Positions 6,687 to 20,783 of a DNA stretch of 64,000 nucleotides are shown one piece after another. Within the stretch, counting starts at the first letter, position 1; each line of letters starts with the position of its first letter. Under the pieces are notes generated by a model, which saw nothing but the letters and a program-made list of their open reading frames with translations, was not told the origin of the DNA and did not search any database. Source of the stretch: an uncultured bacterium (GTDB taxonomy: Bacteria > Verrucomicrobiota > Kiritimatiellia > RFP12 > UBA1067); assembly GCA_902802945.1 (NCBI GenBank), contig CADCOC010000001.1, positions 1 through 64,000 of the forward strand, written 5' to 3'. A program made the translations under genes and the position numbers.

Positions 6687-8150
6687 ATGAAGAAAGTGGC
6701 GATAGTTGGCGTTGAAGGCTCTGGCAAGACGGTGATGCTTGCCGGGTTGGGGGACTTGTACACGTATCCGGACGAGGACGGGTACTTCCTTGCGCCGAAA
6801 AACTTCGAAACAGCGACGTATGTTGCCGAGAAGATCAAGCGCATGCGGAGGGGTGAGTGGCCCTCGGCGACAACCGGCGACGAGATGCGGGGCCTCGACT
6901 GGACTTTGAAACGGCGCGAACTGGGAGCGCGCAAGCCGCCAGAGAACGTCTGCGAAGTCTCGTTCCTCGATTTCGCGGGCGAGGTGTACCGCGCTGCATA
7001 CGGCATTTCCGACGGAGACGACGACTCTCTGACGGAGCAGTCGAAGGAACTGAAGCAGTACGTGTGCGGGGCGGACGAGCTGATTGTGCTCATCAACCTG
7101 CGCGACGTGATCAGCAACGGACTTGGCGACCAGCGCGTACAGGAGGCGATGTGGATTACGAGGTCGATTCTTGACACGGTGCTTGGCAAAAAGGAAGGTA
7201 CGGGGGGGCCGCGTGCGGCGATCGTGCTCTCGCAGGCGGACAGATACGCGGAGACAATCAAGTCGTGCGGCGGCGCGACTGGCGTGTTGCAGAAGTATCT
7301 GCCGCATGTGGCCAACGATTATGGAGGGTGGCTTGATGTTTTTGCGGCAAATGCCATCGACAAGACGGTTCTCGACGATGATGGGAACATGGTGCCAGCT
7401 GCGGATTTCACTACGCAGGGCCTACTGTCGATTCTGAAGTGGATTCGCGGGGAAAAGGTTCTGGACGATGTGGCGATACCCAATGCAGAGGGGGGAAATT
7501 TGCCGCGACAGAGCGAATCCTCGCGTGGACGCAATAAGATTCAACTATGGGTGGAAGGCCCGTACTGGGCAGAGACGAACATCGGAGCCGATGAACCATG
7601 GGAATATGGCTGCTATTTCTGGTGGGGTGACACCGTGGGTTACAAACGTGAGAACAACGTATGGGTGGCGTGCGACGGTTCGTCATGTAATTTCTCCTTC
7701 GGCTCTGGGAACGCTCAAACCTACAATAGGAGCATTGCCTCCATGAAGAGCGGGGGATGGATTACGGACGGCAATGTTCTAGCGCCGGAACATGACGCAG
7801 CTCAAGTGCAATGGGGCGGCGGGTGGCGCATGCCGACGGCTCAGGAGCTTAAGGACCTTTGTGAAAAGTGCGATTGGCGCTGGACACAGATGAACGGCGT
7901 CAACGGATATCTCGTCCGAGGCAGGGGCGAGTACGCGTCCGCCAAAATTTTCCTTCCCGCTACTGGCTACGGCTATGGACCGTCGCTATACGGTGCTGGT
8001 TCGTACGGCTACTACTGGCCGTCTGATCCGTACTCGGACTATCACTATTTCGCGTGGTACTTCTACTTCTCTTCTAGCTACCACCGCACTAGTTACCATA
8101 CCCGCCTTCACGGACAGTCTGTTCGGCCTGTCCAAGGGTTTGGCGAATAG
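6687..8150 (+). CDS. Small-GTPase domain fused to a C-type-lectin-like FISUMP domain
   Basis: Protein of 487 residues. Residues 1-260 are a TRAFAC-type GTPase: P-loop GVEGSGKT at the N-terminus, a DxxG-like FLDFAGE and SQAD in place of the usual NKxD. Residues 280-487 form a Fibrobacter-succinogenes-type major paralogous (FISUMP/DUF1566-like) domain with WGGGWRMPTAQEL and an end in SVRPVQGFGE. The last 60 residues are dominated by Tyr, Ser and His. Such C-lectin-type tails serve as variable regions in diversity-generating retroelements elsewhere, but no reverse transcriptase or template repeat is in this window. The ATG at 6687 follows AGGTG; an in-frame GTG at 6678 is less likely. It is the first gene of a co-directional block reaching to 20416. 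Confidence 0.75.
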   Translation: MKKVAIVGVEGSGKTVMLAGLGDLYTYPDEDGYFLAPKNFETATYVAEKIKRMRRGEWPSATTGDEMRGLDWTLKRRELGARKPPENVCEVSFLDFAGEVYRAAYGISDGDDDSLTEQSKELKQYVCGADELIVLINLRDVISNGLGDQRVQEAMWITRSILDTVLGKKEGTGGPRAAIVLSQADRYAETIKSCGGATGVLQKYLPHVANDYGGWLDVFAANAIDKTVLDDDGNMVPAADFTTQGLLSILKWIRGEKVLDDVAIPNAEGGNLPRQSESSRGRNKIQLWVEGPYWAETNIGADEPWEYGCYFWWGDTVGYKRENNVWVACDGSSCNFSFGSGNAQTYNRSIASMKSGGWITDGNVLAPEHDAAQVQWGGGWRMPTAQELKDLCEKCDWRWTQMNGVNGYLVRGRGEYASAKIFLPATGYGYGPSLYGAGSYGYYWPSDPYSDYHYFAWYFYFSSSYHRTSYHTRLHGQSVRPVQGFGE

Positions 8151-8249: not shown

Positions 8250-11200
8250 ATGACAGAAAACGTAGAGATCGAGATTGACGTGACCGGCGAATGTGGCCTT
8301 GTGCTGCAGCAGGCGGGGCGGTCGATCGTGCGCGGCGCGCGCGTGAGGAATGCGGGCGGGGAATCCCTCGTCGGCATGACGCTCACTTTGACGTCCGACA
8401 TCGGTTTGTTTCATCCGCTTATGCTTACGCTTGACGCCGTGCAGCCGGGCGAGACGATTTCCGTACAGGTTCCGGAGGGCGAGCCGAAGCTGGACTACGG
8501 ATTTCTCTCCACGCTGGCAGACGTGCGGCAGGGGGAGGTGCGTGCGTCGCTTGCCGCGCCTGACGGAAAGGAGCGCGCGTTCGCGTCCGTCCGCCACACG
8601 GTGTACGCGCCGGACCAGACGCTCGGCTGCGGGCGGCCGATTTACTATGCGAGCTTCGTCGTGCCGCAGTGCGACGCCGTCGCGCGCCTCCAGACGGACG
8701 TGGCGAAAGAGCTGGAGGCGGCAACCGGGGATGCGGGGATCGTCGGCTACCTGCACGAGAAGAAGGACGTCTACGACCTCTGCAAGGCCGTGTATCGCGC
8801 CGTGCAGAACCTTGGCATCGCGTACGCCGTGCCGCCGGCCACGTTTGGACAGCCCGGGCAGAAGGTTCGCCTGCCGGACGACATCCTGAAGTACAAGACG
8901 GGATGCTGTCTCGATACGACGCTTCTCTTCGCGTCCGTGTTCGAGAAGTGCGGACTGCGGCCCGTGGTCGTGTTGCTGAAGGACCATGCGTTCGTCGGAT
9001 GCCACCTCGTGGACAAGAGCTTCTCCGATCCGGTCGTGACGGACGTGGAGGTCCTGCGCAAGGCGCTGGCGGATGACACGCTGGTCGTGATGGAGACGAC
9101 GATGGTTGGCGGGAATTCGTCGTTCGCGGAGGCGGAGGCGTCCGCCAAGCTGAAACTGATGGAGAAGCCCTCGTTCGAGGGCGCGGTGGACGTGGCGCTC
9201 GCGCGCGGCATGGGCGTGCATCCGCTGCCCGTGGTGTCCGGCGGCGGGTTCGGCGAGGTTGAAGGGCGCGAGGTCAACGCGCGCGACGAGGCGACGCGCG
9301 AGTTGAAGGAGGACGTGAACCTCGACGCGCTCGGCGGGGCGGACAAGGACTCGGCGCAGGCGCGCATCGACGGCTGGGCGCAGCGGCTCCTTGACCTCTC
9401 AAAGGCCAACCGGCTCCTCAACGTGCGCGATAACGCCAAGGTCGTGCCGCTCCTGTGTCCCACGCCCGCGGCGCTCGAGGACGCGATCGCGGCGGACAGC
9501 GGGTTCCGCGTGAAGTCGTACGAGAACTTCCTCGACGCGGAGGCCGGGCGCGCGTTTCGGAAGCTTGCTCCGGCCGTGGCGCTCGAGCAGTACCACGAGA
9601 CGCTGGAGAAGTCGCTGCGCGAATGCGAGCTGTGGAGCGTCCTGCCGAAGAAGGACACCGAGAGGCGTCTCAAGGAGCTGTACCGCGCCGCACGCGTCGA
9701 TCTGGAGGAAAGCGGCGTCAACACGCTGTTCCTTGCGCTCGGAACGATGGAATGGCGCGAGGCGGGCGCCGCGAAGTCGGCGCCGCGCTGCCGTGCGCCG
9801 ATCCTGCTCGTGCCGGTGAAGATCGAGCGGAGGAGCGTGTCGGACGGCTACCGCATCCGCAGACTCGACGAGGAGACGATCATCAACACGACACTCCTTG
9901 AGATGCTTCGCGTGGAATACCGGCTCTCCGTGCCGGGACTCGATCCGCTGCCGACGGCTGATTCCGGTGTGGACGTGGGGAAGGTGTTCGGCATCCTCCG
10001 CGCGGCGGTGCGGGACCTGCCGGGCCTCGCCGTATCTGAAGACTGCATGGTGGGGCAATTCTCCTTCGGCAAGTTCGTGATGTGGAAGGACTTGACGTCC
10101 CGCAGTGAGGCGATCCGCGCCAACCCGCTCGTCGCGCACCTGATTGCACGCAAAGGTGCGTATGACGACGGAGTAGAGTCGTTCCCCGCAGTTGAGGTGG
10201 ACGGGCATCTCGACTATGCGCGGCTGTGCTGTCCGTTGAGCGCGGACTCCACCCAGCTCGCGGCGATCCTCTATTCCGCGCTCGGCAAGACGTTCGTCCT
10301 GCACGGTCCGCCCGGCACCGGCAAGTCGCAGACGATCACCAACATCATAGCGCACAACCTCTCGCTTGGTCGGCGCGTGCTGTTCGTCTCGGAGAAGAAA
10401 GCCGCGCTCGACGTGGTGTACGGGCGTCTGTCGCGACTTGGCCTTGCGCCGTTCTGCCTACAGCTGCACTCCAACAAGGCGGGCAAGGCGGATGTCTACG
10501 CGCAATTCTCGGAGGCCCTCAAGGTCGGTGCCGCCGCGCCTGCCGGCGACTCGGCCGCTACGGTCAGGGAGATTGAGGATGTCCGCCGCCAGCTGGACGG
10601 CTACGTGAAGTCCCTGCATCGCCAGACCGTGAGCGGTTTTACGCCATACGATCTCTTCTCGCGCCTTGTTCGCGGCGAGATTGACGGCGACGGCTCGCTC
10701 GTGAGAGGCAACGCCCGCGAAGTGACAGCTGAAGAGTACGACAAGGCGAAGCGAGCGATTACGGTTGCGGCGGAGATGCGCGAAGGGATTCCGGCCGACG
10801 CCGTAAAGGCGCTTGCGCGCGTGAAGCCTTTCGCCTGGAGTCCCGGTGCGGAAGCGCGCCTTGCGGAGGATGCCGTGCGCATTGCAGGGGAGCTGCGCGA
10901 GGCGAAGGCAGAACTTGAAAAAGTCGGAGGGCCGTCCGAGGACGCCGCCCGTTTCCTGAAGCGCTATTTCAACTTCCTGAAGGAGACGCGGAAGTTCGAG
11001 GAGAACGTCGCCGTTGCATACGATCCTGCTGCTCTCCGCAAGATGCCCGTGCGCGAGCTGCGTCGGCGTCTGGGAGAGATCGACCGCGCGTTCGTCCTCG
11101 TGCGCGTCTTCAAGGAACGTGCGCTCGTGCGCGAGTACGCCGCGGTTGCGAAGGACGGTGCGTTGGACCGCGTGCGCCTCCGCGAGGCGATGAAGCTGGC

Positions 11201-13163
11201 GACGAGTCTCCAGGAGGCGGACGAGGAGCTGGCGAAGTTGGAACCGCGCGCCAAGCAGCTGCTGGGCGAGGGATTCGATCCGAAGACTGCGAATCCCGAC
11301 GAGCGTTTCGAGGCTCGCGCACGGGCGGAACTGCGCCTGGAAAAGGCGTGCGGCGCGGTATCGGAATTGATCGTAGCCGAGCCGTCCGAGCTCGTTCCGG
11401 CGAAGTCGGGCGAGCTCGTGGAGCTGGCTGACGGAATCGCGGCGCACGCGAAGGGCAACCTAAGGCAGGCCTTCATGTACTTCGAGGCACGGCGGGAGAT
11501 TCCGTTCGTGGCGGGCGCGGTGGCGGAGGCGCTGGACGGGGACGACGCGCCGGACGCGGCGGCGTGGTCCGCGCAGTTCGACAAGGCGTTCCAGTCGAAA
11601 CTTCTGGACGAGACGATGGAGAGCGAGCCCGCGTTCGGTTCGTTCAGGGGCGTCGCGCGCGAGGCGCAGATTGCGCGCTTCCGCGAGCTTGACGCGCGTT
11701 GCGCGGAGTTGGCGAGGAGAAGTCTTGTCGCAAAACTCACCGCGGCCATTCCGCGCACTGACGGACACGCGCGGCGCGGCGACACGAGCGAGCTCGGGCT
11801 CCTGATGCACGAGTGCGGGAAGAAGATGCGCCAGAAGCCGGTGCGGCAGATTCTGGCTGAGACGCCCACGCTCATGCCGTCCATAAAGCCGTGCTTCCTG
11901 ATGAGTCCGCTCTCGGTGGCGCAGTACCTGCCCGTGGACGCCGCGTTCGACCTCGTGGTGTTCGACGAGGCGTCGCAGATTCCGACGTGGGACGCCATCG
12001 GCGTCATCGCGCGCGGGAAGCAGTTGATCGTGGTGGGCGACCCCAAGCAGATGCCGCCGACGAGCTTCTTCCAGAAGGGGCCTGACGAAGAGGCGGAGGT
12101 GGAGGACCTCGAGAGCATTCTCGACGAGTGCCTGCACGCGGGGTTGATGTCGTGCTTCCTCGGCTGGCACTACCGCAGCCGACACGAGTCACTCATCGCC
12201 TTTTCCAACCACCGCTACTACGAGGGCGGACTGAACGTGTTCCCGGCGGCGGCGCTCACGGACCGGCTGGGCGTCAGCTTCGTGTACGTGCCGGACGGCG
12301 TGTACGAGGCGAGCGGCAGCCGCACGAACAGGCGCGAGGCGGAGAGGGTGGCAGACATCGTGATGCGGTGGATGGCGGATCCGGAATGCGCGGGGAAGTC
12401 CATCGGCGTGGTCACGTTCAGCGAGGCGCAGCGCGACCTGGTGGAAGACCTCGTGGACGAGCGCCGCGAGGCGGCGCCGGAACTCGAGGCGCGTTTCGCG
12501 GAGCAGGGCGACGAGCCGTTCTTCGTGAAAAACCTCGAGAACGTGCAGGGCGACGAGCGCGACGCGATCGTGTTCTCGGTGGGGTACGCGCCCGACGCGA
12601 ACGGGAAGTTCAACATGGTGTTCGGCCCGCTCAGCAACCAGGGCGGCGAGCGCCGCCTCAACGTGGCCATCACGCGCGCCAAGGAGAAGATCGTGGTCGT
12701 CTCCAGCATCCACGCTCGGCAGATCGACACCGACCGCGTTTCGCGCCAGGGGCCGGCGGACCTCCGGGCCTTCCTCGACTACGCGGAGAAGGGTTATCGT
12801 ATCGCGCTGCCGCAGGCGGACGCTGCGAACGACCGCTTCGCCGAGGAGGTGGCGGCCACGCTGGAGAAGGCCGGGGCCAAGGTGTCGCGGGACGTAGGGT
12901 GCGGCGGAAACCGGGTGGACGTGGCCGTGCGCGCCCCTGGTGACGACGCCAGGTACGTGATGGGCGTGATGTGCGACGGGCGAAGCTACGCCGGTGCGCG
13001 CACTGCGCGCGACCGCGACTGTCTGCGCGATGACGTGCTGGCGTCGCTCGGCTGGAACGTCGTGCACGTGTGGGCCGTGGACTGGGCATACGACCGGGCC
13101 CGTGCGGAGAAGAGGATTTTGGAAGAATTCAAAAAGGCAACAACGAGAAAGGAACAAAAATGA
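8250..13163 (+). CDS. Very large DUF4011-type superfamily 1 helicase-nuclease
   Basis: Protein of 1637 residues with five parts. (1) Residues 1-120 look like an Ig-type beta domain. (2) Around 180-260 is a transglutaminase/peptidase-like segment with TGCCLDTTLL and a His in KDHAFVG. (3) A DUF4011-like region begins near 370 (LLDLSKANRLLN). (4) A UPF1/DNA2-like SF1 helicase (COG1112 type) has GPPGTGKSQT near 686, VFDEASQIP near 1234 and LNVAITRAKEK near 1468. A long coiled insert separates the two ATPase halves. (5) The C-terminal 90 residues resemble the Vsr/DUF559-type endonuclease (GGNRVDVAV, then CDG and YAGARTARDRD). Similar helicases occur in anti-phage systems such as Mokosh; assignment to defence is inference. 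The next gene overlaps its stop codon (ATGA). Confidence 0.8.
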   Translation: MTENVEIEIDVTGECGLVLQQAGRSIVRGARVRNAGGESLVGMTLTLTSDIGLFHPLMLTLDAVQPGETISVQVPEGEPKLDYGFLSTLADVRQGEVRASLAAPDGKERAFASVRHTVYAPDQTLGCGRPIYYASFVVPQCDAVARLQTDVAKELEAATGDAGIVGYLHEKKDVYDLCKAVYRAVQNLGIAYAVPPATFGQPGQKVRLPDDILKYKTGCCLDTTLLFASVFEKCGLRPVVVLLKDHAFVGCHLVDKSFSDPVVTDVEVLRKALADDTLVVMETTMVGGNSSFAEAEASAKLKLMEKPSFEGAVDVALARGMGVHPLPVVSGGGFGEVEGREVNARDEATRELKEDVNLDALGGADKDSAQARIDGWAQRLLDLSKANRLLNVRDNAKVVPLLCPTPAALEDAIAADSGFRVKSYENFLDAEAGRAFRKLAPAVALEQYHETLEKSLRECELWSVLPKKDTERRLKELYRAARVDLEESGVNTLFLALGTMEWREAGAAKSAPRCRAPILLVPVKIERRSVSDGYRIRRLDEETIINTTLLEMLRVEYRLSVPGLDPLPTADSGVDVGKVFGILRAAVRDLPGLAVSEDCMVGQFSFGKFVMWKDLTSRSEAIRANPLVAHLIARKGAYDDGVESFPAVEVDGHLDYARLCCPLSADSTQLAAILYSALGKTFVLHGPPGTGKSQTITNIIAHNLSLGRRVLFVSEKKAALDVVYGRLSRLGLAPFCLQLHSNKAGKADVYAQFSEALKVGAAAPAGDSAATVREIEDVRRQLDGYVKSLHRQTVSGFTPYDLFSRLVRGEIDGDGSLVRGNAREVTAEEYDKAKRAITVAAEMREGIPADAVKALARVKPFAWSPGAEARLAEDAVRIAGELREAKAELEKVGGPSEDAARFLKRYFNFLKETRKFEENVAVAYDPAALRKMPVRELRRRLGEIDRAFVLVRVFKERALVREYAAVAKDGALDRVRLREAMKLATSLQEADEELAKLEPRAKQLLGEGFDPKTANPDERFEARARAELRLEKACGAVSELIVAEPSELVPAKSGELVELADGIAAHAKGNLRQAFMYFEARREIPFVAGAVAEALDGDDAPDAAAWSAQFDKAFQSKLLDETMESEPAFGSFRGVAREAQIARFRELDARCAELARRSLVAKLTAAIPRTDGHARRGDTSELGLLMHECGKKMRQKPVRQILAETPTLMPSIKPCFLMSPLSVAQYLPVDAAFDLVVFDEASQIPTWDAIGVIARGKQLIVVGDPKQMPPTSFFQKGPDEEAEVEDLESILDECLHAGLMSCFLGWHYRSRHESLIAFSNHRYYEGGLNVFPAAALTDRLGVSFVYVPDGVYEASGSRTNRREAERVADIVMRWMADPECAGKSIGVVTFSEAQRDLVEDLVDERREAAPELEARFAEQGDEPFFVKNLENVQGDERDAIVFSVGYAPDANGKFNMVFGPLSNQGGERRLNVAITRAKEKIVVVSSIHARQIDTDRVSRQGPADLRAFLDYAEKGYRIALPQADAANDRFAEEVAATLEKAGAKVSRDVGCGGNRVDVAVRAPGDDARYVMGVMCDGRSYAGARTARDRDCLRDDVLASLGWNVVHVWAVDWAYDRARAEKRILEEFKKATTRKEQK

Positions 13164-13816
13164 CATTAGGCGACATCATAGCAAAAATCCTCGAAATATT
13201 CGGAATCAAACCGGCGCGCGAGCGGAAGCTCAGAGGCGCGATCGACGATACGAGGCGTAAGATCGCCGAAATGGATGAGGACAGAAGTCTCATTTTGCGC
13301 ACAAACGCGAAGATTGCAGAGGTCATCGCCGATCTTAGGCGCAAGCTTCAGGTTGAGACGATACCCCAGAACCAGAAGCTGATCATGGACGAAATGGACG
13401 AGCAGGAGAAGGAACTTGATCGAAAGACCGCGTTGTCCGAGCAGATGACTGAGAACATCTCGACGCAACGCATCATGCTCAGCAGGTACGAGCAGCTTCT
13501 CGAACAGCTCCGCCATGGCGCCGATCCTGTCATGATCGAAATGCTCACTGAAGAGGTTGCCAACATGGAGGAGATGCGCAAGGGAGCGAAAGATGGAGCT
13601 GAGGGGCTTGACGTCAGCGGCAGCAAGTCGAAGTCCCGAAAGGCGTCGGGCGCCGCTGCGGCTAAGCACGCCGCCCGACTGGCGGAGAAGCTCGGCACGG
13701 CGGTCCCCGCCCAGTCCGCGCCTGCGAACCACGCCCCGTCAACGCCTGCCGCTCCGGCGCCAGCGGCCCCTGAGACTGCACCTGATACTCCCGCGCCGAC
13801 GGTTGCCGCGGGCTGA
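13160..13816 (+). CDS. Coiled-coil protein, PspA/ESCRT-III-like (candidate)
   Basis: Protein of 218 residues. It starts with an amphipathic helix (MTLGDIIAKILEIFGIK), then has about 125 residues of long charged helices with heptad character. A low-complexity Ala/Pro-rich tail (about 165-218) follows. An N-terminal membrane-binding helix ahead of a helical hairpin is the plan of PspA/Vipp1 and ESCRT-III proteins. The similarity is architectural, not proven by alignment. It begins inside the stop of the helicase gene and follows AGAAAGGAA, so the two are translationally coupled. The next gene encodes a second protein of the same plan. Confidence 0.55.
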   Translation: MTLGDIIAKILEIFGIKPARERKLRGAIDDTRRKIAEMDEDRSLILRTNAKIAEVIADLRRKLQVETIPQNQKLIMDEMDEQEKELDRKTALSEQMTENISTQRIMLSRYEQLLEQLRHGADPVMIEMLTEEVANMEEMRKGAKDGAEGLDVSGSKSKSRKASGAAAAKHAARLAEKLGTAVPAQSAPANHAPSTPAAPAPAAPETAPDTPAPTVAAG

Positions 13817-16572: not shown

Positions 16573-17637
16573 ATGACACAGGAAGAATTTTTTGGCGCGA
16601 TCGAACATAACTTGCAACTGCTGGCTGCAAAACGCGCCGAATTGCCGTTGTACAACATTCCGCGGATTGGCATTTTCCTTGGCAAATTCGGGAATCTGAA
16701 GTTGCTGTCTCGAATCAAGGAGTTTAAGTGCATTGCCAAGGGTGGTGATCCGCAGTGCCCTGATAACGTGCGCTGTTACGACCTTCTTTCTTCAAAGGCT
16801 CTCTTCGTCGGCCCGATTCGGTTTCGTGTCTTTGCCTGTTTCGCGGATGCGCCAACGGCGGAGGGATATCGTCTGGCCAAACGCGCAATCCGCAGATGGT
16901 ATCAGCAGAGCGGTTGGGCCAATAACGAATGTGAGATGCCGTACGCAGCCGCCATTGTCGTGGGGGCTGCATCGCCTTGGGAGGATGGACTCACTCCAAA
17001 TGCAGTAGACCCGCCGAGCGCGAACGTCAAAATTGCATTTCGCATGCTTGCGGCTTCCAGCCCACAGCCGGGGAATGGAATGGTGATAGAAAAGGAGGGG
17101 GATGTAGGGGCGTGCATAATCGTTTATCAAGCGCTTGTCCCAGAGACGTTCGACAAGGTGGAGAGACGTGTGCGTGATTGCGTGGAGAACCTTTTCCTGC
17201 CGAACGGCGATGTAATAGGCGGAGGGTATCTTACCGTTCGCAAGGTCATGGACAGGTTGCCGAAGATCCCATACAAGGTGATAGTCAACATTTTCGTCAA
17301 GATGCAGGGAGAGGGAAATTACAGAAAAGACTTGCTGCCGAAGGATGCAGGGCGAGAATTGGATGAACAGCGCGTATACCTTGAGAAGCGTCCGCCATCC
17401 TTTCTAAAGAAATGGCTCTCGCGGCTGGAGCCTGAATGGTATACGCAGAACCGTGTTTCTCGGCTAGTGGGCCTGGGCTCGATCGGGGCGTTGCTTACGG
17501 TGCCCTTGCAGCTTTTTGAACATTTCATTCCAGACTTGATCATGCCGTACAGATTCATGATCTTTCTCGTCGTCAGCAGCTTGCTGGGCGTATGCTTGAT
17601 TCTCTGGCTCTGGTTTTTACTGCGCCGTCGGATCTAA
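16573..17637 (+). CDS. Unrecognised protein with two C-terminal membrane helices
   Basis: Protein of 354 residues. The first 300 are soluble and contain eight or so Cys residues and several Pro-rich turns. The last 55 form two hydrophobic helices (about 297-315 and 325-347) ending in LLRRRI. The coding sequence is less GC-rich than its neighbours, which suggests separate acquisition. It follows the previous gene by 18 bases, with GGAGTCTGGCG before the ATG. No family assigned. Confidence 0.65.
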   Translation: MTQEEFFGAIEHNLQLLAAKRAELPLYNIPRIGIFLGKFGNLKLLSRIKEFKCIAKGGDPQCPDNVRCYDLLSSKALFVGPIRFRVFACFADAPTAEGYRLAKRAIRRWYQQSGWANNECEMPYAAAIVVGAASPWEDGLTPNAVDPPSANVKIAFRMLAASSPQPGNGMVIEKEGDVGACIIVYQALVPETFDKVERRVRDCVENLFLPNGDVIGGGYLTVRKVMDRLPKIPYKVIVNIFVKMQGEGNYRKDLLPKDAGRELDEQRVYLEKRPPSFLKKWLSRLEPEWYTQNRVSRLVGLGSIGALLTVPLQLFEHFIPDLIMPYRFMIFLVVSSLLGVCLILWLWFLLRRRI

Positions 17638-20510: not shown

Positions 20511-20586
20511 GCGAGCTTAACTCAGTTGGTAGAGTGCCACCTTGCCAAGGTGGTTGTCGAGGGTTCGAGTCCCTTAGCTCGCTCCA
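20511..20586 (+). tRNA. tRNA-Gly (GCC)
   Basis: Cloverleaf with a 7-bp acceptor (GCGAGCT/AGCTCGC), D-loop CAGTTGGTAGAG, anticodon loop CTTGCCA (anticodon GCC), GGTTCGAGTCC T-arm and genome-encoded CCA. Confidence 0.95.
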
Positions 20587-20612
20587 TTCATGGGGTTGTG
20601 GAAGCGGTGAAT

Positions 20613-20688
20613 GGGAGCATAGCTCAGTTGGTAGAGCAAGTGACTCTTAATCACTGGGTCGTGGGTTCGAATCCCTCTGCTCCTACCA
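20613..20688 (+). tRNA. tRNA-Lys (CTT)
   Basis: Acceptor GGGAGCA pairs with TGCTCCT (one G-T pair at the end). The anticodon loop CTCTTAA gives anticodon CTT. T-arm GGGTTCGAATCC and encoded CCA are present. Confidence 0.95.
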
Positions 20689-20707
20689 TTCACAACTAAC
20701 TGGTCGT

Positions 20708-20783
<76 letters not shown>

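Follow-up and report, generated by a model that had tools for sequence, protein, structure and literature searches.

A putative transglutaminase-like site in a short-form ProA-type helicase-nuclease of an uncultured rumen bacterium

We describe a ProA-type protein of 1637 aa from an uncultured rumen bacterium (ORF 8250-13163, + strand, ATG start), in which a predicted transglutaminase (TG)-like domain with a conserved Cys-His pair stands ahead of a DUF4011 part, a helicase core and a nuclease domain on a single chain. The best explanation, to which we assign a probability of roughly 0.6, is that this short-form ProA would carry the TG-like site as the effector of a nucleic-acid-gated defence. 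Unless another locus or contig is named, coordinates refer to the window, i.e. the whole stretch of 64,000 nucleotides that was analysed.

Results

Domain architecture of the ProA-type protein

The domains follow each other in the order Ig-like, TG-like, DUF4011, SF1 helicase and MTES_1575/Vsr-type nuclease:

8250..13163, + strand: ProA-type protein, 1637 aa (ORF; NCBIfam NF058533; PADLOC PDC-S37)
8250..8609, + strand: Ig-like beta-sandwich, residues ~1-120 (predicted model; VIA-align rows over residues 1-123)
8610..9239, + strand: TG-like domain, residues ~121-330 (model pLDDT 86.9; PNGase/TGase/LapG rows; hhalign)
8907..8909, + strand: codon of putative catalytic Cys220 (Cys in 44/44 rows)
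8985..8987, + strand: codon of putative catalytic His246 (His in 44/44 rows)
9093..9095, + strand: codon of putative third residue Glu282 (Glu in 42/44 rows, Asn in 2)
9384..9908, + strand: DUF4011, residues 379-553 (Pfam PF13195, E 1.2e-38)
10245..12707, + strand: SF1 helicase core, residues 666-1486, its motifs parted by a long insert (Pfam AAA_11, AAA_12)
12837..13127, + strand: MTES_1575 (Vsr-like) nuclease domain, residues 1530-1626 (Pfam PF18741, E 4.3e-25; 55-row alignment)

An earlier note on this DNA had claimed DUF4011, a helicase core and a nuclease in this one frame, and Pfam indeed returns matches to all three. The helicase parts (AAA_11/AAA_12) lie at residues 666-737 and 1289-1486, and the motifs GPPGTGKS, DEA, GDPKQ and RLNVAITRA are all found. 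The note had also placed a beta domain ahead of the helicase and proposed structure prediction of the N-terminal part; the predicted models contain an Ig-like beta-sandwich at that place, followed by a TG-like alpha/beta domain. For residues 1-123, VIA-align gives Ig-like rows, for example factor XIII barrels and domains of glycoside hydrolases. Right behind the TG-like domain, residues 330-379 form a block with a pLDDT of 31-40.

Conservation of the TG-like site

The papain/transglutaminase-type Cys/His site suggested in the earlier note is backed by conservation, profile comparison and fold. It comprises the segments TGCCLDTTLL (residues 217-226) and KDHAFVG (residues 244-250). When related proteins were compared, as the note had also advised, C220 and H246 were kept in all 44 aligned rows, a count that exceeds the number of independent rows because at least two pairs (L050/L012 and L052/L017) seem to come from one assembly each. 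Within TGCCLDTTLL it is the second Cys that is conserved, position 219 being mostly Thr in relatives. Y192, Q204 and R207 are likewise invariant; with C220, H246, Q204 and R207 unchanged in 44/44 rows, the putative site is no chance resemblance. C220, H246 and E282 were kept already in the first set of nine sequences and account for three of the 11 columns that do not vary in a 20-row alignment (A2).

The 44 rows consist of ORF 8250-13163, 8 loci from the whole-protein search, 27 of 28 phylum loci (L051, which is the ORF itself, was dropped) and 8 of 79 plasmid/phage records; loci found by patterns containing the Cys motif were left out. We dropped biased sampling as the source of the conservation, given this omission and the use of a whole-domain profile for the phylum search. 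A zinc site was also discarded, as no other Cys or His is near-invariant at residues 100-330 of the 44 rows.

With the whole-domain profile (E up to 1e-10) the TG-like domain was found in 28 of 288 phylum genomes, that of the window included; matches to the N-terminal part come from 78 records of plasmids and one of a phage. Scans of viral contigs with alignment A1 gave no relatives; those with A2, A4, A5 and a Klebsiella homologue gave 4, 7, 4 and 3 loci, with several contigs repeated. The whole-protein search yielded 40 loci, 32 of which match only from residue ~326-372 onward and are without the TG part; the TG-like domain is therefore dispensable in related proteins.

The domain was also seen, with its conserved Cys/His, in three seemingly helicase-free proteins (L075, L076 and L077; 759, 593 and 394 aa), two of which start with signal-like stretches while one adjoins a clostripain-like gene (by sequence reading). 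On a Microbacterium plasmid (L082, 8266-10161) the TG-like part lies on a gene apart from the DUF4011 part, and a similar split occurs on a Cyanobacterium plasmid (L080, 8998-10551); both arrangements could reflect gene split or decay.

Fold and profile evidence for the TG superfamily

Two AlphaFold models, built from 16 rows each, reached a pLDDT of 84.7 and 86.9 (86.9 for the TG part alone). The TG part was predicted alone because Ig-like rows took up the fold search with the complete N-terminal model. Its best rows are PNGase (3esw, Z 9.7 over 154 residues), a TGase (4xz7, Z 9.1) and LapG (Z 8.8), with Rad4/XPC close behind (6uin, Z 8.5 over 160 residues), to be read with the tool's warning that a Z near 8 is common. 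The 50 rows include yeast and mouse PNGase, TGases, TglA, LapG, PeiP, arylamine N-acetyltransferase and Rad4/XPC; rows whose titles name no fold are microtubule doublet chains, 3kd4 and RavJ. Foldseek E-values for the same model are weak (best 2e-3, none <=1e-3).

In the TG superfamily the catalytic arrangement has a Cys at the start of a helix, a His at the start of a following strand and a polar or acidic third residue at the next strand or behind it. DSSP of our model has C220 beginning a helix, H246 beginning a strand and E282 after strand 278-281. Profile comparison by hhalign with 15 Transglut_core proteins of the same taxonomic family (P 3.4e-5) puts C220 on the Cys and H246 on the His. 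In the control runs, scores of 10-15 came from the reversed profile and from 18 of the 19 column shuffles, the remaining shuffle (131) being a 4-column end artefact; after removal of gap-rich columns the true alignment scores 48.8, against 22.5 for the best of 60 column shuffles. E282 did not fall on the third residue in the extended profile alignment, so that its assignment is one by conservation and position only.

Single scans of 20 members detect Transglut_core in 5 (best E 1.5e-4) and DUF553 in 6 (best E 4.2e-4). For the ProA-type protein itself the Pfam TG-family match stays below cut-off (DUF553, 14.3 against 20.5 bits, E 0.029). Sequence searches of the PDB returned weak matches alone with the N-terminal part (E >=0.5) and none with a 20-row profile. 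We accept the TG fold because most of the titled fold rows name one superfamily and the profile aligns the Cys-His pair; the call of a TG-superfamily fold at residues 121-330, whose Cys and His are invariant and whose Glu is nearly so, is a strong one. Fold and Cys-His pair are shared with PNGase, TGases and LapG, where the third residue is Asp, whereas here it is Glu (Asn in two relatives) and the domain is fused to a helicase.

ProA family membership and the short form

The protein scores 1558.8 bits against NCBIfam NF058533 ('anti-phage protein ProA', cut-off 1500) and 1045 bits with the PADLOC candidate PDC-S37. Scores with NF058533 are 1569.3 for the orthologue L013, 1797.6 for the long form L014 and 2222.1 for the Klebsiella plasmid copy. 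By these scores ORF 8250-13163 belongs, as a short form, to the ProA anti-phage family of DUF4011 helicase-nucleases. Among the open-licence papers listed in searches for ProA as anti-phage protein, none dealt with it; DUF4011 occurs in three listed papers, PMC10250203 being one.

Long forms (L014, L016, L017) measure 1889-1916 aa, short forms (ORF 8250-13163 and L010-L013) 1637-1649 aa. NF058533 is covered up to position 1730 of 1903 and its C-terminal DUF3320 part is missing: Pfam finds no DUF3320 in the 1637-aa protein and does find it in L014. On this comparison the C-terminal DUF3320 region is lost from the ProA form of this genus. The architecture from Ig-like domain through nuclease, and a score above cut-off, are thus shared with ProA, whereas the missing DUF3320 C-terminus, a replaced nuclease Glu and the cassette partners set the protein apart.

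The same genome holds a paralogue (C73:1-9000; L009, 1616-5344) of 1242 aa without the TG part, which at 1393 bits falls below the ProA cut-off of 1500.

Nuclease motif

In the 55-row alignment of the nuclease domain, D1557 and D1576 are kept in every row and Glu occupies position 1574 in 45. The ProA-type protein has Met1574; over this ORF and L010-L013 the position is Met, Ile, Val or Thr, and five further rows, from other groups, also have no Glu there. All five short forms looked at are thus without the consensus nuclease Glu and keep the TG triad residues. The nuclease of this lineage may be weakened, and the TG site may therefore bear more of the effector role.

Gene cassette

ProA and seven downstream genes form a cassette that is collinear in L011, L012 and L013; in L010 the first two genes behind ProA are present before the contig ends. 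The seven genes are:

13160..13816, + strand: coiled-coil-like gene, start overlapping the ProA stop (ATGA); conserved in L010-L013
13874..14494, + strand: helical-looking gene, 206 aa; 82-95% identity in L010-L013
14505..15608, + strand: CbxX/SpoVK-type AAA ATPase (NCBIfam spore_V_K, E 1.2e-88, below cut-off); L011-L013
15655..16554, + strand: gene with hydrophobic stretches, conserved in L011-L013 (membrane nature a sequence reading alone)
16573..17637, + strand: gene with hydrophobic C-terminus, conserved in L011-L013
17669..19363, + strand: Ser/Thr kinase (Pfam Pkinase, E 1.2e-33); L011-L013
19379..20416, + strand: cassette gene, conserved in L011-L013

By tblastn, no cassette genes were found in the stretches surrounding the long forms L014, L016 and L017. 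The genes upstream of ProA are common to L013 and the window; no match to the window's upstream genes was found in L010-L012.

Directly behind the cassette are three tRNA genes (Gly, Lys, Phe) at 20511-20783. Relatives of the 13874 and 15655 genes are clustered in L122, L123 and L126, with no ProA match in the same stretch; the L122 and L123 clusters also carry a relative of the AAA gene.

GTPase genes and a retroelement

One GTPase gene is present in the window, upstream of ProA, and its end resembles part of a retroelement found on contig C54 of the same genome:

6678..8150, + strand: GTPase (DO-GTPase-like) fused to a FISUMP/Lcl_C-like domain (Pfam below cut-off; relatives behind the cassette in L011 and L013)
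7965..8140, + strand: segment at the end of the GTPase gene resembling the variable repeat of the C54 retroelement (alignment to the C54 template)

The DO-GTPase matches of this gene reach 17.2 and 14.3 bits against a Pfam cut-off of 27. On the contig of L011, a goat omasum relative (L165, 1453-12549), the cassette is followed by five GTPase genes with an SF1 helicase among them; all five carry the same GTPase domain, and the C-termini are vWA, Sel1 repeats, hydrophobic, FISUMP-like and DUF805. L013 has two such genes behind the cassette before its contig ends.

C54 encodes a diversity-generating retroelement with reverse transcriptase, template repeat and variable repeat, in which 28 of 29 mismatches fall at template adenines. 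Compared with the same template, the end of the GTPase gene is changed at 27/52 adenines and 24/124 other bases (Fisher p 2.3e-5); the adenine changes occupy codon positions 1 and 2 alone, and 18 of the 24 other changes are at position 3. This pattern fits an old retroelement target that has since drifted. Passages of an earlier paper describe GTPase-centric conflict systems with variable partners, some with retroelement-diversified parts (PMC7159879). A GTPase with variable partners is common to both; compared with the systems in those passages, ours differs in that a single GTPase domain recurs with varying C-termini next to a ProA cassette.

Discussion

Pfam (E up to 1) finds no HEPN family in the ProA-type protein, the N-terminus of which models as Ig-like and TG-like. 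The model of Hhe, which we take to be related to the HEPN-transglutaminase-helicase-Vsr giant proteins, gives 719.3 bits, below its cut-off of 2000. Passages of a 2013 paper describe such giants with HEPN, transglutaminase-like, SF-I helicase, Vsr nuclease and wHTH domains, and suggest from the transglutaminase fusion that protein cleavage serves as an extra line of defence (PMC3710099). The idea of the earlier note, that a protease-like domain could cleave proteins on activation, is therefore sound but not new for the wider family. Compared with the giants in those passages (PMC3710099), our protein likewise joins a TG-like domain, a helicase and a Vsr-type nuclease on one chain, and differs in having neither an N-terminal HEPN nor a DUF3320 wHTH. 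Less ordinary here are the loss of DUF3320, the absence of the nuclease Glu with the TG triad kept, and the cassette with a kinase and GTPases. The earlier note mentions none of these three features.

In the mechanism that we favour, the helicase would sense foreign nucleic acid or move along it. The resulting change would expose the TG-like site, perhaps gated by the cassette kinase, AAA ATPase and GTPases, and a host or phage protein would then be the substrate of the exposed site, which would work as a cysteine peptidase, a deamidase or a cross-linker.

Foremost among the rivals is a binding function like that of Rad4/XPC, DNA-binding TG folds without enzyme activity: the domain would be a non-catalytic module for nucleic acid or a protein partner, and the nuclease would be the effector. 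The Rad4/XPC chains among the best fold matches and the helicase context speak for this reading, as do the two invariant nuclease aspartates. Yet a dead site is not expected to keep C220 and H246 throughout the alignment, the pair persists in proteins that seem free of a helicase, and the consensus nuclease Glu is absent in this lineage; we hold this rival to be unlikely. Less probable still is that C220 and H246 serve structure, as a metal or redox pair within a TG-like fold. Conservation alone cannot tell structural from catalytic residues, but the predicted placement of C220, H246 and E282 on helix and strands is the catalytic arrangement of the superfamily, and the profile alignment puts the pair on the Transglut_core Cys and His.

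An active site might also be directed inwards, with the domain processing its own protein or a cassette partner (activation by cleavage) and not phage or host targets. The flexible, low-confidence stretch just after the domain and the separate TG gene of L082 would suit this, though low pLDDT at residues 330-379 may mean a mere linker, and we see only a slim chance for it. The effector role of the TG-like site in a nucleic-acid-gated defence can be extended to a bolder scenario, which we regard as speculative and rather improbable: in this rumen genus a ProA that began as helicase-nuclease would have become a TG peptidase gated by its helicase, with nuclease motif and wHTH tail decayed and the C-H-E site retained. 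The protein would have become the effector in a cassette that also holds a kinase, an AAA ATPase and a set of GTPases; domain swapping would diversify the GTPase C-termini, and in the FISUMP case a diversity-generating retroelement would do so as well.

Conclusions

Summarizing, should the TG site prove active, a defence family that is widespread and named as helicase-nuclease would possess an effector that modifies proteins; a single point mutant would then put the 2013 prediction directly to the test. The short form, whose nuclease motif is altered, offers a natural experiment in which TG and nuclease activity may come apart.
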